DNA from: Nakazawaea peltata
Lineage: Eukaryota > Ascomycota > Pichiomycetes > Alaninales > Pachysolenaceae
Direction: 5' to 3'
Length of the DNA: 64,000 bases
Assembly (NCBI GenBank): GCA_001599355.1
Contig: BCGQ01000001.1
Coordinates: forward strand, 1,305,135 to 1,369,134
Shown here piece by piece: positions 7,958-63,100 of the stretch. The translations under genes and the position numbers were made by a program. Under the pieces are notes generated by a model. That model was not told where the DNA came from, ran no database searches, and saw nothing but the letters and a program-made list of their open reading frames with translations. Every line of letters begins with the position of its first letter. The stretch's first letter is position 1.

Positions 7958-8644
7958 ATGATCCGTGGGTTAAATGCACAAAGAGGAATTCTTGGGGTTC
8001 GTATGTTCAGTGGAGGTAGAGTTGTTGGTGTGTTACAACCTACCAAAACCGTGGCTGCCGCCTCCGCTACAAGTATGATGACGGCGGGTAGCAATGCGAC
8101 TCACTGGCCACAGGATTTCAGATTGCCTAGACCAAAGACATGGGAAGAGTCCAATGAGAGTGCATTATCGAAGCTGACTAAGTGGTATTTACTCAGTGAA
8201 ATGTTCCGTGGTATGTGGGTTGTGTTGGAAATGTATTTCAGACTGCCATATACGATTTATTATCCGTTTGAAAAGGGTCCAATTTCCCCACGTTTCAGAG
8301 GAGAACATGCTTTGAGAAGATATCCAAGTGGTGAAGAAAGATGTATTGCTTGTAAATTGTGTGAGCTGATCTGTCCACTGCAACTGATTACTATTGAACT
8401 GGAAGAAAGAGCCGATGGATCACGTAGAACTTATAAGTATGATATCGATATGACCAAATGTATTTATTGTGGTTATTGTCAAGAAAGTTGTCCAGTTGAT
8501 GCTATTGTTGAGAGTCCTAATACTGAATATCTGACGGAGACCAGAGAGGAACTTTTATACAATAAGGAAAAGTTATTGGACAATGGAGATAAATGGGAGC
8601 AAGAGTTACAATATCTGATTGATGCGGATGCTCCATTTAGATGA
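7958..8644 (+). CDS. Complex I 23-kDa (TYKY/NDUFS8) iron-sulfur subunit
   Basis: 228 aa from ATG 7958; a GTG lies three codons upstream. An Ala/Arg-rich mitochondrial presequence precedes the highly conserved segment '[20 protein letters not shown]'. Two 4Fe-4S motifs follow: [10 protein letters not shown] from about residue 129 and [12 protein letters not shown] from about residue 168. These carry clusters N6a and N6b of mitochondrial NADH:ubiquinone oxidoreductase. Six CTG codons fall at positions that are Ala in fungal homologues, including four close together at 8366, 8378, 8384 and 8399 (consensus CEAICPAQAITIEAEER). Leu or Ser would be abnormal there, so CTG almost surely reads Ala. Presence of this gene shows that the organism keeps complex I. 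Confidence 0.96.
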
Positions 8645-14023: not shown

Positions 14024-14173
14024 CGCATGTATATGAAACCTGTATTATATAGAACCAAATGTATTTTTAGTGATCCTATTCTTAGTGATCCTATTCTTAG
14101 TGTAGGTGGTTATTTGGATACTTATTAGCATATTACGAATATTGGCAAAATGACATTTAAAAAAAAAGAGGAA

Positions 14174-14244
14174 GCTCGCACTCAGGATTGAACTAAGGAC
14201 CAACAGATTTGCAATCTGCTGCGCTACCACTGCGCCATACGAGC
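14174..14244 (-). tRNA. tRNA-Cys (GCA)
   Basis: 71-nt cloverleaf on the minus strand. The 7-bp acceptor stem pairs GCTCGTA with TGCGAGC (one G-T pair), the D-arm holds 'AGTGGTAGCGCA', and the anticodon arm is GCAGA-TTGCAAA-TCTGT with anticodon GCA. The T-arm contains TTCAATC. No intron is present. It is nearly identical to the yeast tRNA-Cys sequence I remember. It lies about 150 bp after HOS4 and marks the edge of a 3.6-kb gene-poor stretch. Confidence 0.95.
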
Positions 14245-17200
14245 AACAATCTCGGAAGTTCCATGATTTTTATGAACTATATGTTGCCTGGTGAATAAGG
14301 CGGAAAAGTTCTGTCTGATATGTTTACTTGAGATATGGAATTGGTGAAGATTTGCCACAAGCATATGGAATGAGAAGATCCATATAGAGACTGGGACTAA
14401 AAGATTGGTTCGATAAGATTGTAAACAAATAACTTCCACGGTAATGGTAAATCGTGAAACTCGGGTATCTCATTAGACCTCCCTTATCCGGAATTTTCTT
14501 TAAAACCGAAAAAAGTGCTAGTCAAAAAAAGCGTAGGAAAAACGCAAGTAGGGAAAGACGACAAACAACAGGAGATTTTCTGCGTTCTCTGATCGCTTGG
14601 CATATTTTAGCTGTTGACCCTGAACAACAACAACAGCCCTTATTATAGGGCTGGGCTATTTTGCCCTACTTTTTATTGTGGGTGTCGGAAGTATCCCTAA
14701 TGTTAATACAGATACGCGACTACACTATTTTAATTTTATTACCTTGATTCTATGTCAACCTTCCTTAAGTTCTTGCAGATTATCATTTACCAGAATGGCT
14801 TACCTATTAACCATGTAGATACACTAGACAAGGTGAAACTGGAGCAGCCAAAAAATGGGCCCGTAACTTTGAATCGGTGCAAATCACTCAAGTTTCTTTT
14901 TTAATCTTTGGGAGTCTGTTTCAACGTGCTCAAGATATCATTTCCGCGAGTACAAAGAACAATCGTCGCCAGTGGTACTCATTTTCCGCTTAATATGAAA
15001 CACGCACTGCTTCCAAGCAAGAATTATCTACAGTCGGAAAAGCTGATGCATTTCCTTCTGGCCATAGCGTTTTATTCAGGGAAATGTACAGTTTTTTGCA
15101 ATCGGGAAAGAATCCCTTGGTGCAGCCTCCACAAAATTTAGTCGAGTTTTGAGCAACCCGGTCTAAATCAGCTCCATGTTGCAGGAACTCAAAAACCTTA
15201 AAGTTTATTAGAAGGGGCAAACTTGCTCAAACTATGCCTCAAAGGGTTGTGCCCTTTTGCTTTATACTCGAAAAATAAATACTTGCATGAATATATGCAT
15301 GCATCAAAAAAGAGACGGAAACAGAAACCCCTGTTGCTTCGGAAAAGTCAGGAGAACTCCATTTTAAAAGCGCATGATGGAGGATCATTGCCCAATAAAG
15401 GGCAAATTTAAAAAATGTGAAGGGGGAGCGCACAAGGAAGATAACAAATGTTACTTAAAAGATGATAAAAAGAAACTTTAAACACCACACGCTGGGCACA
15501 CGTCTATCTTCAAGAAGCAAATGGAACAGCTGTCCAATGGACTAATAGCTTACCGTAGTTAGAGTCGGAATCTACTCTCTGATTTCTAAGCTAAAAAATA
15601 AAAAACATGAGGTACAAAATTACCCACCAAAGGTGTCCCGCATACATGAAATACAAGAGGCCACTGTAATATCAGGGAATAAGAGCTTAGGTTCCGCTGC
15701 AATGTAGACCGGTGGGCGAAGAACGAGGCTGTGATGGTCGGGGAACCCCGATTTACTCCAAGATCTCCTTGCTGGGGTCCAAGTTAGTACTACACCCTTC
15801 CGAAAATATTTTTTAGCGTTGGTCCGACTCACGCAAACACAATATCAGACACAAAAGCCGGGCCAGAAAACCTAAAACTTAAGAGCCTGCCTTAGAGCTT
15901 ATTTTTAAAAGCGAAGTGCAGAAGGGCAAACAGTTGCAGCTTTCTTTTTCACTAAAACGAAATCTTAAAGCCGCAGGAAAGAGTAAGCCGAGGAAATGTT
16001 TTCGGGCCTCACGACCTTATTCTCAGTAGAGCATATCACCCACCTGGTGCATGCAGGTATTGAGTATTGTCATAAGATGTAAAGGAACTAGTTGCCCAAA
16101 CAGGATTAGTACAGTATGTAGGGATCTAATTACATTGGTTAGGTGTTTTAGTCCGGTGGTTTGTATACACCGCAAAAGTCGATGGTTCATCGTAACGTTT
16201 GTGGCTCGTTTATTCTTGCGCCTGAGGCGACTAAAAACAACGTTATTAGATTCTATGCTCGGTGAGCTAAAGCTTAAATAACATTTAATTCTCCACGTAA
16301 TCATGTCACCGTTCTTCTTGCGCATCGAAGATGCACTGTTGCTTAACGGATTGCGGGTATTGGCTTCAAGAAAAGAAACGATCATCATAGGCAACGATTA
16401 TCATCTATCGATGATGTTTGATGATCAGTAAGGGTTTTCTGGCAGTTTGAAGGACAACGTTTGCGCCCTGCTAGTAGAACTGAGTGCCGGAAATTATCTG
16501 CCCTTCTGGAAACTCAAAGCCTAAGGTGAGGATGTTACATGCTCACAAGCCTAAAATAAAATGCAAGACGCTGGACCCGGCGGATACAATTGCACTGAAT
16601 ACGATCGTTGCTAAACTACAAGGCTAATCATAATAGAACGGAGAGCATTCACTACAGAGTGTGAATAGGATGCCCAGACTTTTGGGACAAGCCAACAGCG
16701 TGCTAATTCCAACAAGATGTGTTGCTGTACAATAATCTGCCTATTGAAATAAATCTTAAAGTTGACTATAAATCTGATAGCTCTTAGATTTGCTTTAGTT
16801 TTCTCTCGTTTCTTTTTCCATGATCCCTCGCTCAAATGCAGACTTGACTGTATTCAGGTTGACTTATTTGAACATCTATATTGAGCTGCGAGTTTATGTC
16901 CTATTTGAGTTCTTATATTGCCCAGCTAATCATCTAGATTCCTACACATTTCTTTTCTTTTTTTCGGTTATAAGATTACATCACAAAGCAAAATATCACG
17001 AGTATAGTCATGTCGGTAATATATCGTTCCGCTCGACGTTTGTCTTTGCATGTTCATTCGCAAGTTCCGGACGGCAAACAGAGGAGCTTCCAACCTTCCG
17101 AACGCCGCGACCTTGGTCGTAACCATTACGAAATTCCTGATATTTCAAGAAAAGGGTTCTATCTTTAAGCAACTAGGCGAGTGACGGAAGCGAGGATCCG

Positions 17201-18785: not shown

Positions 18786-19572
18786 TTGGTCATCCCTATT
18801 GATAGTCATTTAACTCTACAATTATGCTTTTCTTTACACTATAGCTTTTTTTTATCTTCCCATATACAGTTTTAACTCTGATAACCTTTCGCTTAGATAG
18901 CATTTATTATTTACCTCAATGTAGAAATCGACACGCCCCTCTTTTGAGAAAGTAGGGTTCAATTAAGACTGTGCGGCTCTGCAACCGGGTAACACCTCTC
19001 TTATCGGGATCTTTTTCGAACCCCTTTGCAAAAGGTCGTGTACAAATCCGAAAACTATATAAAGGGCAGAAGCTGCTGTTTTTCTCAACTGTTCCGAGGT
19101 TACTCAAATTGATCTGTTTAAATGGTAAGTTATGGTATCAACAATGGCGTTTGCGACAATTGATGATGATTAAATAACAACTATTGAATTTCTTCGACTG
19201 AACTTCCATGTAGAGAAAACATATTTACAGAGCTTTTTAACCCTGATAATTGTCGCTCAAGTCATCATATTGATGAGAAATATACTAACTGATATTTGTA
19301 TGTATAGTCATTTTAATAGATAAATTAGAGACGAAATATTGTAAGATTGTAGGTATTTTAGTGAGTTGTGGATTGGAGGAACTGCCAGACTTCAAGGCCA
19401 TGATCTCTAGATCCTAACCCCCATTGCTCACCTTCCCCCCTTCCTCCTCCCTCCCTTCCCCCTTCTCATCTGGAAAATTTTTCTTTACAAAAAAATCAAA
19501 AAAAAATTCAGCTGAGCTTAAAACAAGTTTAGTAAGCGCCAATAGAACTCGATAGTAGATAACATAACTGAG
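18786..19572. other. Intergenic region with isolated splice signals
   Basis: No coding gene found. GTCGTGTAC occurs at 19035-19043. An ATG at 19122 is followed directly by GTAAGT (19125-19130), and TACTAAC lies at 19283-19289 with AG at 19306-19307, resembling a complete intron. Joining to the nearest acceptor gives a stop after two codons. A GGAAAATTTTTC element at 19472 lies about 100 bp before ECM2. Confidence 0.5.
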
Positions 19573-21606: not shown

Positions 21607-24414
21607 ATGTCTACCATGGAACTGACGCCTTCGTCGACACCATCCCGTCGTAGTTCAATGGCTGGCTCCAAATCATCCTCCAAAAGATCTCATCGTGAAG
21701 TCCGTTTCGGTTCTTATGTATTGGGATCGACTTTAGGTGAGGGAGAATTCGGTAAAGTCAAATTAGGTTGGCGTAAAGATGGCAAAGCACCTTCTCAACT
21801 GCTGATCAAGTTGATTAGACGTGAATCGATCCCAAGAGGCTCGGAACGCGAAAGCAAAATCCATAGAGAGATCAACTCCTTGAAGAGATTGGCCCATCCA
21901 AACATCGTAAGATTAGAAGAAGTATTACAAAATGATAAATATATCGGAATCGTATTAGAATACGCTTCTGGTGGTGAATTATTCGACTATATCTTGGAAC
22001 ATAGATACTTAAAGGACTCATTACTGTGTAAATTATTTGCTCAATTACTCAGCGGTGTCGATTATATGCATTCTAAAGGTATTGTTCATAGAGACTTGAA
22101 ATTAGAGAATTTGTTATTGGATAAACATAAAAATATCATCATAAGTGATTTCGGGTTCGTTAATAGTTTCAGAGAAGGCAATGAGTTGATGAAGACAAGC
22201 TGTGGTTCTCCTTGTTATCTGGCTCCGGAATTGGTCGTTAGTAGTGAACCTTACGAACTGAGGAAAGTCGATGTTTGGTCTTGTGGTATCATCTTATATC
22301 TGATGCTTGCCGGATATTTACCATTTGACGATGATCCACAGAACCCTGATGGCGATAATATAGCAAGATTGTATCACTATATCACTCATACTCCATTGAC
22401 TTTCCCTGAATATGTTCAACCAATGCCTAGAGATTTGTTGAGAAAATTGATCGTCAGTAATCCAAAGAAAAGAATAACTTTGAAGGAAGCAAGATCTCAT
22501 TCATGGTTGGCTCCACATGCTCCATTCTTAAGTGTTACTCCACAAGAATGGGATAGAAGCTACAGAAATGCTAGATCAAGAATGCATTCCAATATTGATC
22601 CAAATGTCGCTGCTAATAGAAGACTTTCTCTCATGGAAGGAAGGTATTCTAACAATTCTGGAATTGGATCTGCTTCTTCTGGTTCCTCTCCTTTCTTTTT
22701 ATCCACTTCTGGATCTGGTATCCCTGGACAATCCCATCACAAGCGTTCATACAGTACTCAAAATGTACCTCTGCTGCTTTATTCCCATCCACTGGCACCT
22801 CAAACATCATCTTCACATCTGTTAGCTATTCATTTGGGAGAAACCGATTCGATTGCAGGTCCATCTTCACCTCTTTCATCAACTTCGTCTATTGATCTAC
22901 TCAATAAGAATACTCATGGACCGGTATCTGTTTCTTCGAATCCTGGATATGCCTCTGCTTCTGCATCATCTTCTTCAACACGCCCTAGAACTCAATCTGT
23001 TTCAAGTGCTTCTATTCTGTTACAAGCGGTTGTTCAAGCAGATGTTGTGGAACGTTCTCATCGTGCCGCTGCCGCAGCAGCAGCCGTCTTAGCAACTAAT
23101 TCCGCAGCCGCAAATGCAGCTGCCAACGCTCAAACAACAGCTGAATTAGATGCTCTGATGACTTCCACTGCTTTAGAAGCTCTGAATAGCACAAAAAGAA
23201 AAATGTTACCACCTTCAGCTCCTAAATCTGGAGGAAGTGTTCTGAGTGGAACGTCAATGAGATTGCCTGGTCCTCATAACAAACCAAGACCAACTTCATA
23301 CCATCCAGGATTATTCTCAGGAACCACAAGTAACTCCACAGAATCTTATTCATTGTTACCATTCCATTTAGGTACTTCTGCTGCATCATCTTCATCTTCA
23401 GTAACTCCTATTAAAGAGGAAGAGCCACCATCAAATACTTCACTTATATCTTTATCTCTGCTGTCATCTGTTATTCATGAGGGTAGTAGTCCTTCCCGTG
23501 ATAAGAGACATTCTTGGTCAAAGATTAGTGAACCTCTTGTTGATATGAGCAGTGCTAGTGGAATGTTGAGTTCAAGTGATAGCAAATCTGAGAAGAGGAA
23601 ATCGGTTGCATTAGATTCATTGTCTAGTGCAATTGAGACCTTCAAAGAGAATGTGGAGAAGAAAGAGGGACTGGAGGCCTCAAGTCAAGTATTGGAGGTT
23701 ACGGCTGGAGAAGAGAAATCTACGGATGAATCTCAAGTCGCAGCCGCCGAGGCCTCTACCGAAGTTCCTGAAGAAGTTCCTGAAGAAGCTACTGAGAAGA
23801 CTTCAGAGAAGACTCTTGAGAAGGCTACTGAAGATAAAACCAGACCTGCCGAACTCTCGACTACAGTTGATCTGGATCTCACCAAAGAACCTAAATCTAC
23901 GACCGTTGAGGCTGCTATCCAAACAATTGAAGTCAAACCTAATACACCTGTCACAAAAGTACAATCTTCCGATTCTACTCAATCCAAAAAAGAAGCATCT
24001 CATCATGATAAAGAGAACAAACCAGCACCTGTGCAACCTCGTAACAAAAGATTCTCTTTCTTCTACTTGGCATCTTCTTATTCCAATTCATCTCCATCTC
24101 CTTCTACTTCTCAACAACAGGTGAGATCTTCAACTAACTCGTCTGTATCTTCTTCTGGAAGAAAGATCTTGGAACCAAGTAACGATCTGAACATTATCAG
24201 AAAACCAGATGATCAACATCAATCGACACGGAAACTGCATAGAATATCGATGATTGCAAGTGCTGCTCCATCGTCCTCATCTCCATTGACGTCGACACAT
24301 GGCACAGTTCCACCTGCACCATCTTCTGGCTCACTGCAATTGAATAAAAATAAAGAATCTAGTGCCGCAAAGAAAGTTGTGGACTTCTTCAAGAGAAGAA
24401 GTATGAGAGTTTAA
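21607..24414 (+). CDS. KIN4: Ser/Thr kinase of the Kin4/Frk1 family
   Basis: 935 aa from ATG 21607; the open frame runs on to a TTG at 21538. The kinase domain occupies about residues 35-300: glycine loop 'LGEGEFGKVKLG' near 40, VAIK-type lysine near 67, HRDLKLEN near 161, DFG near 182, and 'CGSPCYAAPE' when CTG is read as Ala. The sequence MHSKGIVHRDLKLENLLLDK and the 'PFDDDPQNPDGDNIARLY' insert match Kin4, the spindle-position-checkpoint kinase that keeps Bfa1-Bub2 active at the spindle pole. A long S/T/A/E-rich C-terminal region ends in 'VDFFKRRSMRV', a possible basic localisation motif. CTG codons at 22219, 22258 and 22300 lie at conserved Ala positions (CYAAPE, YEARK, LYAMLAG). Confidence 0.92.
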   Translation: MSTMELTPSSTPSRRSSMAGSKSSSKRSHREVRFGSYVLGSTLGEGEFGKVKLGWRKDGKAPSQLLIKLIRRESIPRGSERESKIHREINSLKRLAHPNIVRLEEVLQNDKYIGIVLEYASGGELFDYILEHRYLKDSLLCKLFAQLLSGVDYMHSKGIVHRDLKLENLLLDKHKNIIISDFGFVNSFREGNELMKTSCGSPCYLAPELVVSSEPYELRKVDVWSCGIILYLMLAGYLPFDDDPQNPDGDNIARLYHYITHTPLTFPEYVQPMPRDLLRKLIVSNPKKRITLKEARSHSWLAPHAPFLSVTPQEWDRSYRNARSRMHSNIDPNVAANRRLSLMEGRYSNNSGIGSASSGSSPFFLSTSGSGIPGQSHHKRSYSTQNVPLLLYSHPLAPQTSSSHLLAIHLGETDSIAGPSSPLSSTSSIDLLNKNTHGPVSVSSNPGYASASASSSSTRPRTQSVSSASILLQAVVQADVVERSHRAAAAAAAVLATNSAAANAAANAQTTAELDALMTSTALEALNSTKRKMLPPSAPKSGGSVLSGTSMRLPGPHNKPRPTSYHPGLFSGTTSNSTESYSLLPFHLGTSAASSSSSVTPIKEEEPPSNTSLISLSLLSSVIHEGSSPSRDKRHSWSKISEPLVDMSSASGMLSSSDSKSEKRKSVALDSLSSAIETFKENVEKKEGLEASSQVLEVTAGEEKSTDESQVAAAEASTEVPEEVPEEATEKTSEKTLEKATEDKTRPAELSTTVDLDLTKEPKSTTVEAAIQTIEVKPNTPVTKVQSSDSTQSKKEASHHDKENKPAPVQPRNKRFSFFYLASSYSNSSPSPSTSQQQVRSSTNSSVSSSGRKILEPSNDLNIIRKPDDQHQSTRKLHRISMIASAAPSSSSPLTSTHGTVPPAPSSGSLQLNKNKESSAAKKVVDFFKRRSMRV

Positions 24415-27076: not shown

Positions 27077-28624
27077 ATGGCTACTATTATCCCTCCACCA
27101 TCAAAGAAACAGAAGAGAGAGCAACAGAAGCTGAAAGAGGTGGATCTTATCCCTGACGATGTCCCAAATGTGTTGATCAAATTCCAAGCATCTGATACAG
27201 GAGAATCTGTAGGGGGTTCCATCAGGGTCCCAGGATCTATTACCGAACGTCAATTGGAGGAATTATTGAACAATTTACTCAAGTCATCTGGTAAAGGTGA
27301 TGATGATCCAGAAGATGTCCCATATTCCTTCTCTCTTTTGGGTGACAATGATGACAAAACGACCACTGTTGATATCCGTGATAACTTATACACTTCTGTA
27401 TTGAAGCCTGGGATCAAGACAACAGAAGATTTCATGACATTGGTATATACCCCAAGAGCTGTATTCAAAGTAAAACCGGTTACGAGATCCTCAGCTACTA
27501 TTTCTGGTCATGGAGCCACCATTTTACTGCTGCAATTTGCTCCTAATACTTCCGCAAAAATGTGCACCGGAGCTGGTGATTCCACTCTGCGTATCTGGGA
27601 TTGTAATACCCAGACAATTCAACATACACTTACTGGTCATTCCAATTGGGTCTTATGTATTGCTTGGTCTCCGGAAGGAGATGACGTGGTGGCTACAGGA
27701 AGTATGGATAACACTGTCAGATTATGGAACCTGAAGACTGGAAAACCTATTGGAGATCTGTTGAGAGGACATACTAAATGGATTTCTTCTTTGGCTTGGG
27801 AGCCAATGCACTTAGTTAAACCAGGAGACAAGCCAAGATTGTGTTCTGCATCTAAGGATGGTACTGTAAGAATTTGGGATACTCTGCGTCTTGCAAGTGT
27901 TACTATTATGTCTGGACATGCATCACTGGTATCATGTGTTAAATGGGGAGGAACTGGAGTCATCTACTCTGGTTCTCATGATAAGACAATCAAGATGTGG
28001 GACTCAAATAGCGGTAGATGTATCCAAACGTTGAAGAGTCATGCTCATTGGGTTAATCATTTGTCACTTTCGACCGATTTCCTGCTTAGAATGGGAGCTC
28101 ATGATCATACCGGAAAGAAACCTACTGATCAACAAGCTCAACTGAAAAAGAACTACGAAAAGATTGCTAAACAACAAGGCTCCATCGTTGAGAGAATGGT
28201 GACTCTGTCCGATGATTTTACTATGTATTTATGGGAACCAGAAAAGTCATCAAAACCTATTTGCAGAATGACCGGACATCAAAAATTGGTTAATCATGTT
28301 TCCTTCAGTCCTGATGGAAGATATATTGTTTCTCTGTCTTTCGATAACTCAATCAAGTTATGGGATGGAAGAGATGGTAAATTCATAGCCACTTTCAGAG
28401 GTCACGTAGCTCCTGTCTACCAAGTACTGTGGTCATCTGACTGTAGAATGCTTGTCAGTTGTTCCAAGGATACCACATTGAAGGTTTGGGATGTCAGAAC
28501 CAAGAAGCTCAGTGTAGACTTACCAGGCCATGCAGATGAAGTATATGCTGTTGACTGGAGTTTGGACGGTTCCAAAGTTGCAAGTGCCGGTAAAGACAAG
28601 AAGGTTAGACTCTGGTCTCATTAG
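27077..28624 (+). CDS. RSA4: 60S ribosome assembly WD-repeat protein Rsa4 (NLE family)
   Basis: 515 aa, ATG 27077, the same length as S. cerevisiae Rsa4. The N-terminal ubiquitin-like NLE domain (about residues 30-115, ending in LVYTPRAVFKVKPVTRSS) is the part pulled by the AAA+ ATPase Rea1 to release assembly factors from pre-60S particles. It is followed by eight WD repeats (HSNWVLCIAWSPEG, GHTKWISSLAWEP, SKDGTVRIWD, SHAHWVNHLSLS and so on). CTG codons at 27587, 27758, 28082, 28205, 28334 and 28427 each fall on an Ala of the yeast protein (TARIWD, GDALRGH, YALRIGA, VTASDD, VSASFDN, YQVAWSSD), among the best evidence for CUG-Ala. Confidence 0.97.
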   Translation: MATIIPPPSKKQKREQQKLKEVDLIPDDVPNVLIKFQASDTGESVGGSIRVPGSITERQLEELLNNLLKSSGKGDDDPEDVPYSFSLLGDNDDKTTTVDIRDNLYTSVLKPGIKTTEDFMTLVYTPRAVFKVKPVTRSSATISGHGATILLLQFAPNTSAKMCTGAGDSTLRIWDCNTQTIQHTLTGHSNWVLCIAWSPEGDDVVATGSMDNTVRLWNLKTGKPIGDLLRGHTKWISSLAWEPMHLVKPGDKPRLCSASKDGTVRIWDTLRLASVTIMSGHASLVSCVKWGGTGVIYSGSHDKTIKMWDSNSGRCIQTLKSHAHWVNHLSLSTDFLLRMGAHDHTGKKPTDQQAQLKKNYEKIAKQQGSIVERMVTLSDDFTMYLWEPEKSSKPICRMTGHQKLVNHVSFSPDGRYIVSLSFDNSIKLWDGRDGKFIATFRGHVAPVYQVLWSSDCRMLVSCSKDTTLKVWDVRTKKLSVDLPGHADEVYAVDWSLDGSKVASAGKDKKVRLWSH

Positions 28625-28762: not shown

Positions 28763-29380
28763 ATGACACGTCCACCAATCTCACTCATAGTACTGCTGTT
28801 AGTTCCAAAATTGGGAATTGGATACAAGGGAAGTCTTCCTTGGAGACTTAAAACTGAGATGAAATATTTCCGTGAGGTGACCACAAAGACTATGAATCCA
28901 GATAAGAAAAATGTGGTTATTATGGGTCGTAAGACATGGGAAAGTATTCCTCCAAAGTTCCGTCCATTACCTGGACGTATCAATGTTGTGCTTAGCAGAA
29001 CTAAGAATGACCTTGGAGATGAGTCAGATGTTCTCTTGTCTCATTCTGTCGAGGACTCGATCTCCCAAGTCTTGCTGAAATATGGTGTAGATTCGATCGA
29101 GTCTGTTTATATTATTGGAGGAGCTCAAATTTACAATTATTGTGTACGTCATGGATTATGTGATAATATTTTGCTTACCGAAGTCCAACCTGAGTCAGAA
29201 TCTACTACTGTCAACCTCGATACTTTCTTGGATATCCCCATCTATGATCAAAAGCAATGGCTGGAGTCAGATTTACTGAGCTATTTACAAGAAAGAAACA
29301 CTAGTGATTTCCAATTGGTGAATAATATCGAATCTGGCTTCAAATACTCATTTAAACTCTTCACCAAAGTTGACTCCTAA
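28763..29380 (+). CDS. DFR1: Dihydrofolate reductase
   Basis: 205 aa, ATG 28763, the usual fungal length. Conserved blocks: the first strand, then 'LGIGYKGSLPWRLKTEMKYF', 'VVIMGRKTWESIPPKFRPLPGR' and 'VYIIGGAQIYN', which carry the folate and NADPH sites; the Glu of EMKYF is the active-site acid. The enzyme makes tetrahydrofolate for thymidylate and purine synthesis. The two adjacent CTG codons at 28793-28798 read IVAALVP as Ala, matching the IVAAL of C. albicans DHFR; Ser-Ser would break the buried strand. Only about 140 bp separates it from the RSA4 stop, so its promoter is short. Confidence 0.96.
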   Translation: MTRPPISLIVLLLVPKLGIGYKGSLPWRLKTEMKYFREVTTKTMNPDKKNVVIMGRKTWESIPPKFRPLPGRINVVLSRTKNDLGDESDVLLSHSVEDSISQVLLKYGVDSIESVYIIGGAQIYNYCVRHGLCDNILLTEVQPESESTTVNLDTFLDIPIYDQKQWLESDLLSYLQERNTSDFQLVNNIESGFKYSFKLFTKVDS

Positions 29381-29642: not shown

Positions 29643-30047
29643 ATGTCAATTCAATCAGGAAATATCGGGAAAATCTCATTTTTACCATTAGACCAAATCA
29701 AAAGACCAATTCCCCCAGTTTTGGATTATGCCAAAATCGATGCGATGGCTCTGACTTTGAATGGTATCCCAACACCATCAGCCACTTGTCCAAATGTTAG
29801 TGATATCACATCGGGAGAATTGCCCCCAATCGATGTTATGCATGTGAGAGATCAGGGCAAAAGTTATTATTTTGCCTTTGGTGGTTGCCATAGATTCCAG
29901 CTGTACGAGAAAATAGGAGCCTCCAGCTCGGAGCCTCCTCAGGTCAAGTGTAAAATTTTGCCCCTGACTAAAAAGCAATTAAAATTATATTTAGGTAGTT
30001 CTGTGGACAGCTACTTCCAACCTCTGCAGACCGAGGATTCTGCTTGA
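29643..30047 (+). CDS. SRX1: Sulfiredoxin
   Basis: 134 aa, ATG 29643. The signature 'FGGCHRF' near residue 80 contains the catalytic Cys that reduces over-oxidised (sulfinic) peroxiredoxin using ATP. Upstream, 'PLDQIKRPIPPVLDYAKID' and 'LPPIDVMHVRD' form the ParB-like fold typical of the family. The CTG at 29901, two codons after FGGCHRF, reads Ala (FQAYEK), as in the S. cerevisiae sequence HRLKAYDK. The length is close to S. cerevisiae Srx1 (127 aa), so the gene is complete. Expression under peroxide stress would be expected from the family; no clear Yap1 site was identified. Confidence 0.94.
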   Translation: MSIQSGNIGKISFLPLDQIKRPIPPVLDYAKIDAMALTLNGIPTPSATCPNVSDITSGELPPIDVMHVRDQGKSYYFAFGGCHRFQLYEKIGASSSEPPQVKCKILPLTKKQLKLYLGSSVDSYFQPLQTEDSA

Positions 30048-30188: not shown

Positions 30189-30755
30189 ATGTCGGATACA
30201 ATCTGCTTTGTGTCGTTAATTTCCAAACAAGTAAGTTAACTAGTTCTTCTCATGATGTTTACTTGGGTGTGTTGGTGTCACGATGTTTACTAACATAGAT
30301 AGAACAATCCTTTATATATTCATCAAGTCACGGATGATGTGCTAGGCGACAGCAGCAACAGCTCGCTGGAACTGAACAAATTCCTCAAATATAACTTCTT
30401 GAGTCACATGTCATTGGATATATTCGAATCTCCATTCGCTTCTATGTTACTGCAACAACTGCAAAATACCAATACTGCTAATAACTCATTGTTATTCATC
30501 CAAGATGGTGTCGGGGTCTATGGATACGAAGCTAATACCGGATTGAAAATAGTCATTGGATCGGAAACAAAAGAGAACATCAGTGAGCAATTGTATGATG
30601 TTTTTCGTAGCATTCACAAATTATACTTGAAGATTGTGTGCAATCCATTCAATGTTGTTAACAGAGACGTAAATGATCCGATCGAGAATGAAGATTTCGA
30701 TAACAAGTTAAAGGATATTGTTAATTCTTACAATGAAAAGGTAAGGGCAAATTAG
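30189..30755 (+). CDS. TCA17: TRAPP-associated protein Tca17/TRAPPC2L (two exons)
   Basis: Exon 1 is 30189-30230 and exon 2 is 30303-30755, together 164 aa. The 72-nt intron has donor GTAAGT at 30231, TACTAAC at 30288-30294 and AG at 30301-30302; the earlier AG at 30297-30298 would shift the frame into a stop. The product begins MSDTICFVSLISKQNNPLYI and continues with a longin/sedlin-type sequence: 'HMSLDIFES', 'VYGYEANTGLKIVI' and 'LYLKIVCNPFNVVNRDV'. Human TRAPPC2L shows the same pattern (NYPLYI, YGY.TN, MCNPF). Tca17 helps assemble the TRAPPII complex for Golgi traffic, a theme shared with COG5 at the window's start. Confidence 0.9.
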
Positions 30756-31806: not shown

Positions 31807-32406
31807 TTACAAGACAACACACTTCTTCTTCTTCTTTTCCTTCTTCTCCTTGGCCATTAAACTGGCTCTTGTAGCATTTTCAAAGACCTCTCTAACACCT
31901 TGACCAGTCTTGGCAGAACATTCCAAATATTTCAAAGCACCAATCTTGTCAGCAACAACTTGACCCTCGGCACTCGATACCGGTTGTTGAGAAATAGCTC
32001 TTAACTCTTCGATTGTTTGTGGATCATTTCTTAAATCGACTTTACAACCGACAAGAATGATAGGAACACCTTGACAGAAGTGGAAGACTTCACTGATCCA
32101 CTTCTCTTGAACGTTATCTAAGGAATCTGGTAAATCGATCGAGAAACAGATCAAAATAACATTGGAATCTGGGTATGACAAAGGTCTTAATCTATCGTAA
32201 TCTTCTTGACCAGCAGTATCCCATAAGGCCAACTCAACTCTTCTACCATCGACCTCAACATCGGCAACGTAGTTCTCGAAAACAGTTGGCACGTAAACTT
32301 CCGGGAAGGTACCTTTACTGAACACAATCAATAAACAAGTTTTACCACAAGCACCATCACCAACAATGACCAACTTTCTTCTAATATCAGCAGGAGGAGG
32401 AGCCAT
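31807..32406 (-). CDS. RHO1: Rho-family GTPase Rho1
   Basis: 199 aa, ATG 32406. All GTPase motifs are intact: P-loop GDGACGKT, switch I with '[12 protein letters not shown]', [16 protein letters not shown], NKxD-equivalent CKVDL and 'ECSAKTG'. A lysine-rich tail precedes the CAAX box CVVL, which predicts geranylgeranylation. The sequence is much closer to Rho1/RhoA than to Cdc42 or Rac. Rho1 activates beta-1,3-glucan synthase and Pkc1 in cell-wall signalling. High codon bias and almost no CTG are consistent with strong expression. GPA1 and an MSG5-type phosphatase in the window belong to connected MAP-kinase pathways. Confidence 0.96.
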
Positions 32407-33176: not shown

Positions 33177-33920
33177 CTATACAGAGATATCCTTGAATCT
33201 CTCAGTTTGATGAATACCACACTCGGTCTTCAGCTTTCCCTTCCAACGACCACTTCTCTCGTCATCTCCTTCCAGAATTGGAACTGTACTGTGATAGTCT
33301 CCAACACTCTTGTAACCCAAATCTAACAATTCATTGTAAGGCACCTCGTTAGCGGTGATGTACTCATGAACCAGCTTGAAATCCCAAGACAGTAATGGGT
33401 TGATCTTCAAGATACCAGTCGATGCCTCCAATTCGATAATTGGCAACGAATTTCTGGCTCCTCCTTGAGATCTACGTCTACCGGTGAACACCAGTCCAAC
33501 CGACAATTCTTTATACAGTCTTTGCAGAGGTTCTACCTTGACTAAGTAATCATATTTGTCCTCATCCTTCTCCCACAAGAAATCTCCATACTTGGCCAGG
33601 AATTCCTCTTCGGAAGAGCATCCATTAGGCTGGTATACATGTACTTGCAAGCCGTACTTTTCTTTCACCTTATCAACAAGAGACAAAGTTTGTGGGAAAT
33701 GATGCAAAGTATCGATGAAAATCAAGTCTACGCCACCACCAATCTTGTTGACCATATCACTTATCAGCAATCCAGTCAAACCAAACAGGGTGGTTTGGTA
33801 CAAGTTAGGGATAGTCAAAATAGACCATCTAATGATCTCTTGTGGAGTCAAGTCAGCCAATGTTTTGTTCCAAAAAGCAATTAACTCTGGAGAAATTTGA
33901 ACAGAAGAATCTTGGGTCAT
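33177..33920 (-). CDS. MET16: 3'-phosphoadenylylsulfate (PAPS) reductase
   Basis: 247 aa, ATG 33920. PAPS reductase features: a GLTGLLISDM segment, 'DTLHHFPQTL', 'VFTGRRRSQGGAR' and the C-terminal 'KTECGIH' with the catalytic Cys of the ECGIH motif. The enzyme reduces PAPS to sulfite with thioredoxin in sulfate assimilation. CTG codons at 33516 and 33525 read VEPAQRAYKEL, that at 33492 reads VGAVFTG and that at 33231 reads GKAKTECG, all as in other Met16 proteins if CTG is Ala. A TCACGTGA Cbf1-type site lies 143 bp upstream, the classical control element of sulfur genes. Confidence 0.96.
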   Translation of the reverse strand: MTQDSSVQISPELIAFWNKTLADLTPQEIIRWSILTIPNLYQTTLFGLTGLLISDMVNKIGGGVDLIFIDTLHHFPQTLSLVDKVKEKYGLQVHVYQPNGCSSEEEFLAKYGDFLWEKDEDKYDYLVKVEPLQRLYKELSVGLVFTGRRRSQGGARNSLPIIELEASTGILKINPLLSWDFKLVHEYITANEVPYNELLDLGYKSVGDYHSTVPILEGDDERSGRWKGKLKTECGIHQTERFKDISV

Positions 33921-39879: not shown

Positions 39880-41466
39880 TTAACAATACTCATAAAAACA
39901 ACCATCAACACCAAACTTACCATAAATCCCTAAAGGCATCCATCCTTCTTGATCCAGATGTAAATTTCCCAAGGTGTCCATGGATACTTGGCCCAACTGT
40001 TTACCTATATTAAAACCCCTACCCATCAATTCACCTTCATTATTTTCAGCCTTCCAATCGTTGTGGTCACGGACTTTCAACTCCAAACAGTTTGCTGCGA
40101 CACCTAATTTTCTGACACGAACAGCTCCATTCGGTTTGGTATCGTTTTGTAAAATACGATAATCATAGAAATTCGTTTTAAGAACTGGTCCTAATAAATG
40201 AAGTTTCAATTTCTCATTTACAATTCTAGTTCCCAACAATGCTTGAATGAAGTTCAATTGAGACGATGACAAATTCAGGTCACTTATCAACTCCGAATAC
40301 AATATTCTGAGCTTTGGAATTTGTTTATGGAAGAATAATTCGTTATGAATTCCTCTGGCAAACCAATTACTAGAAATATTTAGTTTAAGAGACTGAATCG
40401 GGTTTAATGAGTTAACTTGGCGACTTAATTGAGGAACCAAATTGGAAGAAAGGCATTGTTCCGAGACACTGAGAATAGTTGGTTCTAACAGCCTTATAAC
40501 AGACAAATTAAGATTATCAACAGGAATAAGAATTATCTCACTAACTCCAGCTACAAAAGCACTCAAGATTTTTACTAACATATTTTGGTTCATGAGTGTG
40601 ACGTTGGAAGAAGACACAATTGAGTTCAGATTGGAAACCTGGATCATAATTCTGTCTTCAGAAGTCCACATGTGATCCATAGGCAAAGATCTCAATTGAG
40701 ACAGAATCGAAGAAACAAAATTTACCAGAGAGTACTCTGTTTCTTTGAAATTGAGAGTATCGACCATCACCTTTTGTAAGTCTTCGTCTTTCGACTGGTA
40801 ATTATATTCATATGAGGGTTCTCCATTGCCAGGAGAGTGCAAAGACAACTCCTTGTCCAAGATCAAGAACTTGGAATAGCCCAATTTCTGGAATTGAGAG
40901 ACATATTTGGAATCACAACAGATCAACCCAACAGTTGAATTCGACTCTAAAGGCATCTTGGTATAATTATACACGACCTTTTTCGTATAGAAGAATGAAG
41001 ATAAAGTGACGAACAACAGCAGGGCAGAACTGAGAGGCAGATAAAGACCAATATTCCCATCTTGCAGTTCCAAATTCTCGGCAATTCCCTTGAAAATCAG
41101 ATTCAATTCATAATAATCGTACACATCATGAGTATTCGATCCTCCAACAATAGTTAACTTAGACTTCCCACTCTTCAGATGATGTGACATAGCCAATTTC
41201 CAGACATCTTTCAAATTACCATTTCTGATTTTGTAAACATCATACCTAACCTGTAAACCAGCAGTTAAAGGAAGACCATGCATCACATCTATTGATCTAT
41301 AAATAGCACTCTCTCCAGCCTTTCTAGTGGTCGACACCGATGCCTGTTCCTTCAAGGACACTTCATGTACATCTTTCTTCCCTTCCAAGTAAATTTTGTC
41401 ATAAACAAGGCATAGTCCAATGATCACACCGAGAACGACTATGAAAACACTCGTATCTAGTTCCAT
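39880..41466 (-). CDS. Membrane-anchored degenerate acyl-CoA-synthetase-like (ANL) protein
   Basis: 528 aa, ATG 41466. A single hydrophobic N-terminal anchor (about residues 6-23) precedes a region resembling the ANL (AMP-binding) fold: 'NIGLYLPLSSALLLFV' near residue 138 corresponds to the early 'VGILLPNSPEF' segment. The C-terminus 'DQEGWMPLGIYGKFGVDG' resembles the 'DGWFRTGDIG.FDEDGY' hinge. The ATP-binding P-loop (SSGTTG-like) is not visible, the hinge Asp is replaced, and the protein stops where the mobile C-terminal domain should begin. It is therefore probably not a working synthetase. I know no close named homologue; location in ER or lipid droplet is inference from the anchor. Confidence 0.6.
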   Translation of the reverse strand: MELDTSVFIVVLGVIIGLCLVYDKIYLEGKKDVHEVSLKEQASVSTTRKAGESAIYRSIDVMHGLPLTAGLQVRYDVYKIRNGNLKDVWKLAMSHHLKSGKSKLTIVGGSNTHDVYDYYELNLIFKGIAENLELQDGNIGLYLPLSSALLLFVTLSSFFYTKKVVYNYTKMPLESNSTVGLICCDSKYVSQFQKLGYSKFLILDKELSLHSPGNGEPSYEYNYQSKDEDLQKVMVDTLNFKETEYSLVNFVSSILSQLRSLPMDHMWTSEDRIMIQVSNLNSIVSSSNVTLMNQNMLVKILSAFVAGVSEIILIPVDNLNLSVIRLLEPTILSVSEQCLSSNLVPQLSRQVNSLNPIQSLKLNISSNWFARGIHNELFFHKQIPKLRILYSELISDLNLSSSQLNFIQALLGTRIVNEKLKLHLLGPVLKTNFYDYRILQNDTKPNGAVRVRKLGVAANCLELKVRDHNDWKAENNEGELMGRGFNIGKQLGQVSMDTLGNLHLDQEGWMPLGIYGKFGVDGCFYEYC

Positions 41467-51600: not shown

Positions 51601-52929
51601 ATGTTGAGTCGTCGTTTGTTCTCCACCACCGCCAAGAAGCAAGCTGAATTCACCGTCTTGAAGAACGGATTGGTCGTTGCTACCGAGTCCAACCCAGTTT
51701 CCAAGACCTCTTCTGTAGGTGTCTACTTGCAAGCCGGTTCCAGATCCGAGAACCCATACAACTCTGGTGTCAGTTCTTTGGCCTCAAAAGTATTGATTCA
51801 AAATTCCAAGAAGACCGCCATTGAGAGTGGTATCAAATTGGCCACCACCAACCAAAGAGAAATCACCGGTTTCAACTCTACTTTCGCTTCTGGCGTTAAG
51901 GGTCAATCTCAAAAGGCTTTAGGGATTTTGGGCGCCGCTTTGAAGAACGCCGAACTGTCCTTCGGTGACGCTAAATTGGTTGCTGAGCAAACCAAGCTTG
52001 CCGGTGAATACGCCGACTACATCGAATCCGTCCCAGCTTTGACCGTTGACGAACATTTACATTCCACCGCTTTCCAAGGTACCCCATTGGCCTTGCCAAC
52101 CTTCGGTAAACCAGACACTGTCTCCACATTAGAGTCCATGGATTTGACCTCTTTCTTGGCCAAGAACTACGTTGCCTCTAACGTTGCCATCGTTGGTACT
52201 GGTGCCGACATTAAGCACGAAGAATTATGTGAATTAGCTTCCAAATTAGATATCCCAGCCGGTGTTAAGCCAGAAGTTCAACCATCTTCTTTCTTGGGTT
52301 CTGACGTTAGATTCAGAGATGACACTTTACCAAAACTGTACGTCTCCATTGCCGTTGAAGGTGAATCTTTGTCTTCTCCAAACTACTGGACCGCTCAGGT
52401 TGCCAGCCAAGTTTGTGGTGACTACAACTCCCACGGATTATTCTCTAAGTTCTTGGGCTCCAAGTTGAGTGCCATTGTCAACGAATTCCACTTGGCCAAC
52501 CAATATACTCACTTCTCCAAGTCTTACTCCGACTCTGGTTTGTGGGGTTTCTACATTGAGTCTGACAACATCATGAACTTTGATGATGCCATCCACTTCA
52601 CTTTGAAGGAATGGAACAGATTGTCCGTATCTGTCACCGAGACCGAAGTTGAGAGAGCTAAGGCCTCTTTGAAATTGAAGGTCTTGAGCGTATTGGAGAG
52701 CTCTGCTGCTCAACTGGATTCCTTAGCTAACGATGCTTTGTTATTAGGATTCAGAGCTTCCACCGAAGAGATCTTGAACAAGATCAACAAGATCACTACT
52801 AAAGAGGTCAACGCTTGGGCTCAAGCCACTTTGTACGACAAGGATATTGCCATTTCTGGTACTGGTCAAATCGAAGCTTTGTTCGATTACAACAGAGTTA
52901 GAAACGACATGTCTATGATGAGATGGTAA
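51601..52929 (+). CDS. COR1: Complex III core protein 1
   Basis: 442 aa from ATG 51601 (the open frame reaches back to 51514 without an earlier ATG). After a short presequence (MLSRRLFSTTAKK) come M16-peptidase-like halves: 'LKNGLVVATE', 'SSVGVYLQAGSRSENPYNSG', 'EHLHSTAFQGTPLALP', 'VRFRDDTLPK' and the ending 'GTGQIEALFDYNRVRNDMSMMRW', nearly identical to S. cerevisiae Cor1. The HxxEH zinc motif of active processing peptidase is absent, as expected for Cor1. It forms the matrix core of the bc1 complex. Codon bias is extreme (TTG, GGT, ACC). The CTG at 52336 reads LPKAYVS, Ala as in yeast. Confidence 0.97.
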   Translation: MLSRRLFSTTAKKQAEFTVLKNGLVVATESNPVSKTSSVGVYLQAGSRSENPYNSGVSSLASKVLIQNSKKTAIESGIKLATTNQREITGFNSTFASGVKGQSQKALGILGAALKNAELSFGDAKLVAEQTKLAGEYADYIESVPALTVDEHLHSTAFQGTPLALPTFGKPDTVSTLESMDLTSFLAKNYVASNVAIVGTGADIKHEELCELASKLDIPAGVKPEVQPSSFLGSDVRFRDDTLPKLYVSIAVEGESLSSPNYWTAQVASQVCGDYNSHGLFSKFLGSKLSAIVNEFHLANQYTHFSKSYSDSGLWGFYIESDNIMNFDDAIHFTLKEWNRLSVSVTETEVERAKASLKLKVLSVLESSAAQLDSLANDALLLGFRASTEEILNKINKITTKEVNAWAQATLYDKDIAISGTGQIEALFDYNRVRNDMSMMRW

Positions 52930-54323: not shown

Positions 54324-55073
54324 ATGTTGAAGTTTATGATACCTGTTAGAGCAGCCAGCTCCGGGATTACCAAGAGGTATTTGGGTCTGAGTGGGATTTT
54401 GACCCAAAGCGCCCGTTTCCAATCCACTGTTCAGTTCAACAATAATGACTTGAAGCACCAAAGCCTCTCAGTAGATGAAAGATTGGACAAATGGATCCTG
54501 CTGTTGAAAGAATACAAAGAGGAAGTAATTAACAACGAGGATCACCTGCGTGATCATGATTTGAATAAAAAGTTCAACGTCTTGGACTTTTATAAACCAT
54601 CCGAGCAACAATTACTGGAACATCAACTGTTGACTCTGAAACCTTTACCTAAATTAGTCGACCCAACCGTTGAGAGATTGACTAATATTGTGATGAAACA
54701 TGGTAAGAAATCGAAGCTGAGAAAAATCATTAGTGAACTGTTCCATTTGGTCTATTTACACACCAAGGAAAACCCGGTCAAAGTATTCAAAGATAGTGTC
54801 GAAAGATTGGCTCCGATCATGAAAACGGTGACAATCAAGACAGGCTTCCTGAAGAATATCACTTCTCCAGTTCCTTTGACAAGGAGACAACGTGAGAGAA
54901 TCGCTATCAAGTGGATTGTAGACGGTTGTGACCGTAGAGCTTCTAATGATTATCTGGTGAGGTTAGCTGAAGAGATTTTAAGTGCATACGAAGGTAAGAG
55001 TGCCGATTATGATAAGAGAAACAGTCTTCATAAGAGTTGTGTTGCTCATAGAGCTTTCCTTGTTCTTAAATAA
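54324..55073 (+). CDS. RSM7: Mitochondrial small-subunit ribosomal protein uS7m
   Basis: 249 aa from ATG 54324; a GTG lies two codons upstream. A presequence and a mitochondrial-specific N-terminal extension (to about 115) precede the uS7 core: 'VERLTNIVMKHGKKSK', 'KVFKDSVERLAPIMKTVTIKTG', 'PVPLTRRQRERIAIKWIVDGC', 'RLAEEILSAYEGKSADYDKRNSLHKSCVAHRAF'. uS7 nucleates assembly of the head of the small subunit. CTG codons at 54717 and 54738 read KSKARKIISEAF, matching the Ala residues of bacterial S7 (KSLAERIFYDAL). MRP2 nearby is another mitoribosomal gene, and both have an AAAATTTT element or relative upstream. Confidence 0.93.
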   Translation: MLKFMIPVRAASSGITKRYLGLSGILTQSARFQSTVQFNNNDLKHQSLSVDERLDKWILLLKEYKEEVINNEDHLRDHDLNKKFNVLDFYKPSEQQLLEHQLLTLKPLPKLVDPTVERLTNIVMKHGKKSKLRKIISELFHLVYLHTKENPVKVFKDSVERLAPIMKTVTIKTGFLKNITSPVPLTRRQRERIAIKWIVDGCDRRASNDYLVRLAEEILSAYEGKSADYDKRNSLHKSCVAHRAFLVLK

Positions 55074-56631: not shown

Positions 56632-57972
56632 CTATATCATACCACTGCGCAGTAAATTCGTCTGAATTATCATATCTGTCACTGCTGAAAGTACAAACTT
56701 CATACTTTGAGTATCTGTGGCACATGTTCTATGAACATATATTTGCTTAGGAGTCCTATTCAACGAAAGAAAAGCTTCTTCGAAAAAACGGGTCAGTTCC
56801 TGAACATCTGTAGACCCACCTGTATATTGAGGAAAATATCTCTTAATAGGTGACCGGAGTAATTTTTGTTCAAATAAATCCGTCTTATTAATGAAAAGAA
56901 TAAAAGGTGTTTGATAGAACCATCTCGAATTACAAAGTTGTCTAAAAAGATGCATCAGTTCCAACATTCTATTCACAGATTCATCTTCGAAAAGACGCTG
57001 ATCATATTCAGATATCAGCATTACAAACAAAATCAGTGTGATTCCTTCAAAACAATGAATCCATTTAGATCTCTCACTCCGTTGACCCCCAGCATCAAAT
57101 ACTTTAAATTTAGTACCATTGACTAAAAATGTGGTCTCGCTAATTCCGGTAGTCTTTATACGACCTTTAAGAATATCTTCATCGCTACACAGATAATTCG
57201 GTTGAGCCAATTTCAAGATATTGTCAAAGTAATACAGTGCATTACTCTCCAATTGGAACTCATTCAGCCTCAAAAAGCAATTTTCGATCCCCTCATCTCT
57301 TGTCCACAATTCGTGAATGGCCCGGGCGGTTTCGATTTTTGTGTGCGTTTTGGGGCTCAGATTAAATGCGGCTGTATTTAAAGACGATTGGTGACTTGGA
57401 CCCTGTCCATATAATTGTGGGGAATTCACTTCCATAATTTCTTCTTCTTCTCCGAGTAAAGCAGTGTTCTCTTCCCAAGGTAGCGGAACAAATTTACCTG
57501 AACTGGTCTTTTGTCTACGTAATTTTGAAGTCTCGGAATATTTCACCACATAATCTTTCAAAAAATCAAACCCCCCAGCGACACCAGTATCAACATCGGC
57601 AAGGGCATCATATTCGAATATTATTCTACGGAATTGAGCCAAAGGTGAATCTGGTTTATCACAATCCAACTCAATTCCCATATTACGCAGCTGGATAATT
57701 AAGATTTTGATACTCTGGATCAGATCTGCCCAAATCACTTGCAGATATTGCATTCGTTCTTGAATTGTAAATCCATGTTGATGTAACAATCTCATTTGTT
57801 TAAGTACTGTCGATTTACCACTCTCTCCTGCCCCTAAAAGAAGAATTTTAACCTGATGTCTATTAGCATTCTGGGTCTTATTAAGGAGCTTCCCAATAGC
57901 CTCATTCTGCTTCTTCCCCACATAATATTCATCCTCCTCTTCTCCTATTTCTCTACTAACTCCACAACCCAT
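56632..57972 (-). CDS. GPA1: Heterotrimeric G-protein alpha subunit, pheromone-type
   Basis: 446 aa, ATG 57972. It has an N-myristoylation signal MGCGVS, P-loop GAGESGKS at 47-54, switch II DAGGQRSE at 293-300, 'NKTD' at 362-365 and 'TCATDT' at 416-421. An extra variable segment of about 50 residues (about 160-215) in the helical domain is shared in position with S. cerevisiae Gpa1, pointing to the mating pathway rather than Gpa2. CTG codons at 57742, 57721, 57688 and 57235 read QYAQVIWADA, IIQARN and NAAYYFDN, all Ala in S. cerevisiae Gpa1. Two more in 'GITAILFVMAISEYDQ' also match Ala. Confidence 0.95.
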   Translation of the reverse strand: MGCGVSREIGEEEDEYYVGKKQNEAIGKLLNKTQNANRHQVKILLLGAGESGKSTVLKQMRLLHQHGFTIQERMQYLQVIWADLIQSIKILIIQLRNMGIELDCDKPDSPLAQFRRIIFEYDALADVDTGVAGGFDFLKDYVVKYSETSKLRRQKTSSGKFVPLPWEENTALLGEEEEIMEVNSPQLYGQGPSHQSSLNTAAFNLSPKTHTKIETARAIHELWTRDEGIENCFLRLNEFQLESNALYYFDNILKLAQPNYLCSDEDILKGRIKTTGISETTFLVNGTKFKVFDAGGQRSERSKWIHCFEGITLILFVMLISEYDQRLFEDESVNRMLELMHLFRQLCNSRWFYQTPFILFINKTDLFEQKLLRSPIKRYFPQYTGGSTDVQELTRFFEEAFLSLNRTPKQIYVHRTCATDTQSMKFVLSAVTDMIIQTNLLRSGMI

Positions 57973-61086: not shown

Positions 61087-63100
61087 ATGAGCAATCAGGG
61101 AAGTAAGTACAATCTCCCCATCAACTTTCCCACCCCCCACCCTCCATACTAACTCCCAATCAGAGCCTGCTAACTTTGACTGGGCAAAAGATATACCCTG
61201 TAAGAATATCACCATCTACGGGTACTGTAAACACCAGGATAAGTGCGCATTCAAACATGAAACTCCGCTGGTAGCTAAAGAAAAGGATGGAGAATCCACT
61301 ACTCCGACTAATAATGTCAGTCCTATAGTTTCTAAAGTGGCGCTGCTGCCCATCTTCACACCATCGGCTGATCCTAAGAAGAAGTTCAGTTTCGATTCTC
61401 CTTCGTTCACTCCAACTTCGGGTTCGGTAGTTCCAGGATCAACTCCCGGTACTGCCACTCCAAATGGAACCCCATTACCACAATTGAGTCAATCTAGTGC
61501 CTTACCTTCGGCTCCTCCAGCTGTCGAATCCAAATTCTCTTCTCCAAGAGCAGCTAATGTTTCCACTTTTATTCCTGAATCATTACAATCGACACAACTG
61601 CTGTTACAGAAGTTCAATATTGACACACCACTGTTCTCACCAATACCTCTGAACAATGGAAGCTCAATGCATCATTCTAATAATACTCCACAAGGTGGTA
61701 ATGGACCTCCTGGACCTGATTTAATATATGCTCAAGGTGCTGGAAATGGTATACCTGGAGCTCCACCACCTGCAGCAGCAGCCAATCCAATGGGAGCTGC
61801 CGTGATTGCCGCAGCAGCTGCTAACCAGGCATATCCATTACAATACCATTTGTATTCTCAAATCCCTCCACCGCATTTCAAACTTCCTTTGCAACCTTAT
61901 GAACGTGATTTAAGCTCTTTATTCATCCCAAATAATGTTAGGGAAGCCTTACACAAACGTAATGAACTGTCAAACCAGATATTACCTCATTCAAATCTTC
62001 CCGATCACATCAATAGCACTTATCATTCTTTGGTACCCATCGATACTCAATTTGACTCTCCATCTGCACTGTTTATGGGATTAAGAACTTGCGTATTTAA
62101 ACTGCAGTCGGCAATTGATGGTAAATTGTACTGTTTGCGTAAGATTACAATCCCTCAAGACCTGTCTTTGGAGATTTCCGAGCAACTGATATCGTTGATC
62201 AATAAGAAATGGACTCTGTTCCAACATAGTAACATTGTCAAAGTTGTGGAACTGTTCACATCTTTGCTGTTTAATGACAATTCTTTAATTTTAGTTTATG
62301 ATTACCATCCATGTTCACAGACATTGATTGAGCTGCATTTTAGTGCTACACTGAACTCTAGTTCCAGTTTATTGACAGAGTCTTTACTTTGGAATTATTG
62401 TTTGCAGTTATTGAATGCTTTACAAGAGATTCATTCTCGTAATTTACTGGTAAGATGTTGGGATTTATCAAAAGTTATAATAACAGGTCCTAATACGAGT
62501 CGACTCAGATTATCAGGACTTGGTGTTCTTGATGCATTAAGTCCAGAAAATCCAACTGATTTACAAAGACAAGATATTAAATTATTCGGTGATTTAATGG
62601 CCAAATTAAGCTCTACTTTGAGAACCAGTAATGAACTTGATGGGTTTATACTGGCGTGTCATAATGAATCTGTCAGTTTGGATGATTTAATCAAATTGGC
62701 TCTGCCTCAATTGATCAAACAAGCCAATGGACTCCAAAATTCAGTAGACTATCATGAACTGTTATTGGCTACCGAGTTAGAAAATGGACGACTCTTCAGA
62801 CTTTTACTGAAATTGAACTTTATCTGTGAAAGACCAGAATTCATGAATGATCTGAGCTGGTCAGAAACCGGTGAAAGATACCCTATCAAATTATTCCGTG
62901 AATTTGTCTTCCACCAAAAGGACGAAATGGGAAAGGCATATTTGGATCTTCAGCATGTATTAACACACCTTAATAAGTTGGACTGTGGTAGTCCAGAAAG
63001 AATTTTACTTGTTTCTAACGATGAGAAATCATGTCTTATCATTAGTTACAAAGAATTGAAAGATTTAGTTGACTCTGGCTTCCGTGAATTACTCCTTTGA
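61087..63100 (+). CDS. PAN3: PAN2-PAN3 deadenylation complex subunit Pan3 (two exons)
   Basis: Exon 1 is 61087-61102 (only 16 nt, MSNQG plus one base) and exon 2 is 61164-63100; 650 aa. The 61-nt intron has GTAAGT at 61103, TACTAAC at 61147-61153 and AG at 61162-61163. Splicing joins MSNQGKPANFDWAKDIP to a CCCH zinc finger (C-x8-C-x5-C-x3-H, about residues 18-37) that binds poly(A). A disordered P/S/A/N-rich region follows, including a PAM2-like segment near 'STFIPESLQS'. Then comes a pseudokinase domain (about 250-510), and the C-terminal knob ends in 'SGFRELLL'. Pan3 recruits and activates the Pan2 nuclease. Without exon 1 the zinc finger would lose its natural start. Confidence 0.94.

Follow-up and report, generated by a model that had tools for sequence, protein, structure and literature searches.

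A nuclear code in which CUG specifies alanine was reportedly first described by Muhlhausen et al. and by Riley et al., both in 2016. It carries the number 26 among the NCBI tables and belongs to the Alaninales, the order of Pachysolen, Nakazawaea and Peterozyma (NCBI taxonomy). According to passages of two studies (PMC5951914; PMC11415595), CUG is read in this clade by a novel tRNA, a tRNA-Ala with a mutated anticodon; the same passages state that AlaRS and SerRS are alone in not depending on specific anticodon bases, and that the clades with a changed code have lost their tRNA-Leu(CAG). The same codon has been changed in other budding yeasts, the Serinales and Ascoideales, where a tRNA with a CAG anticodon is described in part of PMC5951914 as giving CUG the serine meaning of table 12. 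Likewise, Leu-family codons are read as alanine in the mitochondria of Ashbya, where an excerpt from PMC3874161 names CUU and CUA. As to usage, Krassowski et al. 2018 (PMC5951914) describe, in the passages concerned, CUG as relatively rare and mostly confined to poorly conserved sites in code-changing clades. LaBella et al. 2019 omitted the five CUG-Ala genomes from their study (PMC6701816, in part), and a 2024 survey covering 1,154 strains, Alaninales included, reports CTG avoidance in Serinales and Ascoideales, its passages on the subject giving no such figure for the Alaninales (PMC11540330).

The window analysed here, by which we mean the whole 64-kb stretch of DNA, resembles the first of these systems. 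With a probability of about 0.95, we read it as nuclear DNA of a budding yeast that translates CTG (CUG) as alanine, following table 26, without sign of another changed codon. The CUG-Ala code in this window is of a kind already known, a rare change of one small yeast order, and because of its published distribution the organism would fall within the CUG-Ala clade. What the window shares with that clade is CTG as alanine in nuclear genes and a standard meaning for the other codons with enough data. In contrast to the table 12 yeasts, its CTG sites match alanine and not serine. The alanine reading, already put forward in a preliminary description of this DNA, is upheld by masked alignment in eight genes, a control over the whole codon table, bacterial columns in one gene and Pfam scores in 14 of 19 proteins.

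For the masked test, CTG was rendered as X, which scores zero against everything, in the translations of 34 ORFs (13541 codons in all). The set consists of ORFs reaching 120 aa or more, minus 16023-16388 and the nested 23651-24124, plus the shorter 30408-30755 and 50661-51005; it excludes the remaining short or overlapping frames, as well as the ORF truncated at the edge of the window. Eight of the proteins were searched against PDB sequences (with phmmer for complex I) and aligned to 14 target rows.

The best PDB relatives of the intact ORF that contains CEAICPAQAITIEAEER are complex I NUIM/TYKY subunits (Table 1). Its eight CTG codons lie at 8174, 8243, 8366, 8378, 8384, 8399, 8531 and 8615, and the four placed in CEAICPAQAITIEAEER by the preliminary description (8366, 8378, 8384 and 8399) were given exactly. 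In the masked alignment, alanine stands opposite all eight in 9iho and 6gcs and opposite six of them in 7zm7, where the other two face valine and proline. Beyond CEAICPAQAITIEAEER, where two more alanine sites had been claimed, four are found in those first two chains. Additionally, the masked protein was aligned to 80 bacterial loci from genome contigs, those ranking highest among at least 594 matches to a query with alanine at CTG; the bias from this is slight, and none of the six peptide patterns spans a CTG. Among these best 80 of at least 594, the columns of 8366, 8378 and 8384 hold alanine in 80 of 80 homologues, that of 8399 in 69 and that of 8531 in 64, and the invariant columns adjoin the cysteine motif of the subunit. 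The remaining three, 8174, 8243 and 8615, are not conserved alanines in bacteria: in the same best 80 of at least 594, alanine occurs in 20/72 (with leucine in 14/72), 4/80 and 2/80, respectively.

Table 1. Coordinates of the features discussed, with the residues that face CTG codons in solved structures.
Feature	Coordinates	Strand	CTG codons	Observation
Complex I 23-kDa (TYKY/NUIM) subunit gene	7958..8644	+	8	phmmer to PDB 9iho, E 2.4e-113
CEAICPAQAITIEAEER segment, code 26	8360..8410	+	4	bacterial Ala columns
tRNA-Cys	14173-14244			ARAGORN, Rfam
C/D-box snoRNA match	19159-19248			family snR47 (RF01203), 76.5 bits
Ala run, codons 487-493	in 21607-24414
RSA4	27077..28624	+	13	vs 3jct: 6/13 Ala, 2 Ser, 0 Leu
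Dihydrofolate reductase DFR1	28763..29380	+	5	codons 11, 12 face Ala-Ala in 1ai9 and 3cse
Sulfiredoxin SRX1	29643..30047	+	4	1/3 aligned CTG faces Ala in 7lj1
Rho-type GTPase	31807-32406		0	14 Ala codons
PAPS reductase MET16	33177..33920	-	10	Ala 7/10 in 7rge, 6/10 in 2oq2; Leu 0 in either
528-aa ORF	39880-41466		12	no Pfam match even at E 0.1
Cytochrome bc1 core protein 1 COR1	51601..52929	+	3	1/3 faces Ala in 7rja and 6giq
Mitochondrial ribosomal uS7m RSM7	54324..55073	+	11	vs 8d8k: 7/11 Ala, 1 Leu, 1 Ser
G-protein alpha subunit GPA1	56632..57972	-	12	vs 9sh6: 6/11 aligned Ala, 2 Ser, 0 Leu
PAN3	61667..63100	+	16	15 aligned sites per chain, 4cyi and 4xr7
Ala runs, codons 36-39 and 48-52	in 61667-63100

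Over all 14 rows, the 97 cells at CTG comprise 61 A, 7 S, 6 V, 4 P, 4 Q, 3 K, 3 D and 2 N, with one each of C, G, W, I, E, L and T. Scored by a BLOSUM62-derived likelihood, alanine reaches 101.2 bits, serine 22.3 and leucine -47.5. With one target chain per protein, and therefore no site counted twice, 63 of the 66 CTG sites in the eight genes are aligned. CTG here occupies conserved alanine positions: 38 of the 63 face alanine, as against 51/113 for GCN codons in the same alignments, and the 25 that do not face alanine are six S, three each of P, V and Q, two each of K and D, and one each of C, G, W, E, L and T. In these alignments other Leu codons face leucine at 127/194 sites, and Ser codons face serine at 98/189 and alanine at 19/189. 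The log-likelihood over the 63 sites is -115.6 for pure alanine, -169.6 for pure serine and -259.8 for pure leucine. Gene by gene, the structures (Table 1) bear out the six alanine sites claimed earlier for RSA4 and for GPA1, the adjacent pair in DFR1, the single sites in SRX1 and COR1 and the placement of CTG at alanines in RSM7. The alanine reading of MET16 also stands, but its count of four does not, being seven of ten in one chain. In DFR1 two of the four aligned CTG face alanine, those besides codons 11 and 12 facing other residues.

A standard code, with CTG as leucine and the alignments misleading, is barely tenable in view of these counts, which already refute it: a single site in 63 faces leucine, and the pure-leucine likelihood is the lowest. 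That lone cell, RSM7 codon 75, lies in a protein at 40% identity; it is joined on the side of leucine by complex I codon 73 (8174), with its bacterial leucines noted above, and by two Pfam models that score slightly higher with leucine, WDR55 and Metallophos. Hardly more can be said for CTG as serine (table 12), under which alanine columns would arise since serine and alanine interchange easily; we give it next to no credence. The six sites facing serine speak for it, as do PAN3 against 4xr7 (three Ser, no Ala and no Leu at 15 sites) and the Pfam matches of HOS4 Ank_2 and Pan3_PK, which are best under serine. Against it are the alanines faced by most of the 63 sites, the pure-serine likelihood, and the true Ser codons, which face serine far more often than alanine. 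The CTG sites of PAN3 are largely unconserved, five of the 15 facing alanine, and none serine or leucine, in 4cyi. Both the serine and the standard code are rejected as full alternatives on Pfam score and likelihood. The earlier statement that no CTG clearly falls at leucine or serine thus holds in that leucine is rare, and fails for the one leucine cell and the six serine sites of the one-target set; a leucine or serine majority at conserved CTG columns, named at the outset as contrary evidence, is not seen (1 Leu and 6 Ser against 38 Ala in 63).

Returning to alanine, the codon control covers 60 of the 61 sense codons, of which 55 give their standard residue. CTG alone departs strongly from its standard meaning, by about 149 bits. 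The other four misses amount to at most 3.3 bits: CGC (n=1) and CGG (n=3) prefer a similar residue, for CTC (n=16) Met outscores Leu by 1.3 bits, and for GTC (n=50) Ile is ahead of Val by 3.3. Besides CTG, 55 of 59 codons are therefore standard, and since CTG alone was masked, the alignments of the others lean slightly to the standard reading. CTA has zero aligned cells, so that the statement on all other codons rests on the 59 with data. In contrast to the change in Ashbya, which is mitochondrial and concerns other codons (excerpt from PMC3874161), CTT in the window behaves as leucine (28/39 cells), CTA being the codon without cells. CTA is also very rare in the 34 ORFs (22/13541), yet it reaches 16.0 per 1000 trinucleotides outside them; leucine is mostly TTG and TTA.

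A further 20 proteins besides the eight were scanned against Pfam with CTG as alanine (code 26), as serine (12) and as leucine (1), and 19 gave matches. The top family scores best under alanine in 14 of the 19, under serine in two and under leucine in two, with one tie, Ribosomal_S14 (MRP2), which scores equally under all three codes. Some alanine wins are narrow (MWFE and zf-H2C2_2 by 0.1 bit, Abhydrolase_1 by 0.2). The serine-best families are HOS4 Ank_2, by 22.4 bits over alanine, and Pan3_PK in PAN3, by 1.1; the leucine-best are WDR55 in the WDR55-like protein, by 0.5 bits, and Metallophos in the metallophosphatase, by 0.4. The best Ank_2 stretch of HOS4 moves from 242-309 under alanine to 252-345 under serine and leucine, and we therefore suspect a domain-splitting effect. 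Among lower-ranked families in HOS4, Ank, Ank_3, Ank_4 and Ank_5 favour alanine, Ank_KRIT1 serine, and ANK_LRRK2 leucine by 0.3; outside HOS4, Kinase-like and EXOC6_Sec15_N favour serine, and zf-C2H2_4 and several WD40-type models leucine. Alanine had been claimed earlier for KIN4, SWE1, the PCL cyclin, the SDR, the MSG5-type gene, the NRG1-type gene and HOS4; judged by Pfam score only, all of them favour it except HOS4, the margin for the NRG1-type gene being just 0.1 bit. The names KIN4, SWE1, HOS4, JIP5, NRG1-type and PCL cyclin are assumed, in part after the preliminary description, Pfam showing the domain alone.

A mixture fit to the 63 CTG sites assigns 98.7% to an alanine-like class, 1.3% to a leucine-like class and 0% to a serine-like class, with upper 95% values of 5% and 0% for the last two (300 bootstrap resamples); the fit describes site evolution, and rare ribosomal misreading lies outside its reach. 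In this context, it might be proposed that CTG is mostly alanine and decoded ambiguously, a few per cent of leucine or serine entering by mischarging or through a second tRNA. Low-level misreading of this sort would be invisible to site conservation, and 10% leucine was once reported for Pachysolen, a value that part of PMC8645108 calls mistaken, giving more than 99% alanine. Nevertheless, we regard ambiguous decoding as quite improbable, given a leucine-like share of at most about 5% of sites and CTG at alanine columns that, beside a cysteine motif, are invariant in the best 80 of at least 594 bacterial homologues.

As for the mechanism behind alanine, the published work on the clade suggests that CUG would be read by a tRNA-Ala whose anticodon turned to CAG. 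Such a tRNA would still be charged with alanine, because AlaRS needs no anticodon bases, and the ancestral tRNA-Leu(CAG) would have been lost. On this proposal decoding is most likely unambiguous. Within the 64-kb window, ARAGORN and Rfam at gathering thresholds detect no tRNA-Ala(CAG); the one tRNA gene they find is a tRNA-Cys. The transition itself looks old and complete, because no other single codon for alanine is as common here as CTG, which also sits at invariant alanine sites.

Alanine is in fact encoded 943 times in the 34 ORFs, by CTG 311 times, GCT 277, GCC 162, GCA 160 and GCG 33. CTG makes up 23 per 1000 codons in frame, against 10.0 per 1000 trinucleotides outside the ORFs (both strands, 22618 bases). 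A standard or CUG-Ser annotation would thus misspell about 2.3% of residues here (311/13541 codons), some at invariant positions, and table 26 therefore matters for any protein work on the organism. Ordinary annotation would in this way get most of the window's proteins wrong. The earlier warning that standard annotation misreads every CTG is correct as an average over sites, single unconserved sites being beyond this check.

Since alanine is faced at 38/63 CTG and 51/113 GCN sites, CTG is not confined to weak sites; the difference between the two (p 0.06) is one on which we make no claim. The window differs here from the published picture of code-changing clades, in which CUG is relatively rare (Krassowski et al. 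2018, passages as above), and in parts of the literature seen we found no statement of CTG as the commonest alanine codon of a species, which is weak evidence of absence. Heavy CTG use is a lead, because one 64-kb window is no genome. If heavy use at conserved alanines holds genome-wide, it would qualify the remark that reassigned CUGs favour poorly conserved sites.

To get from GCG to CTG or back, a codon must pass through Val (GTG) or Pro (CCG) or change two bases at once. We see an even chance that CTG is no leftover at harmless sites, and that as the commonest single alanine codon it has moved into invariant alanine positions, so that alanine, like serine, is served by two groups of codons, here GCN and CTG, separated by two or more base changes. 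If this is true, the clade would offer a second natural system in which to test switching between codon sets when selection is strong. Should the heavy use of CTG at conserved alanines hold genome-wide, a path from GCN to CTG via a non-alanine step could be tested by comparing species of the order.

Two genes nearly avoid CTG, the Rho-type GTPase (0/14 Ala codons) and COR1 (3/46), the rest being GCT or GCC. Together they have CTG at 3/60 Ala codons against 308/883 in the other 32 ORFs (Fisher p 1.2e-7), although both were picked after seeing the counts and their high expression is an assumption. For the 28 genes among the remaining 32 that have eight or more Ala codons, a codon-adaptation-like index gives no negative trend that would indicate selection against CTG in well-expressed genes (Spearman 0.30, p 0.12). 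Runs of at least four alanines occur three times in the 34 ORFs (Table 1), and all 16 of their codons are GCN, none CTG, with a chance of about 0.002 if codons are independent. Among the other features of the window are the 528-aa ORF and the match to the snR47 snoRNA family (Table 1), the latter on the upstream side of an ORF whose product has an STL11_N domain.
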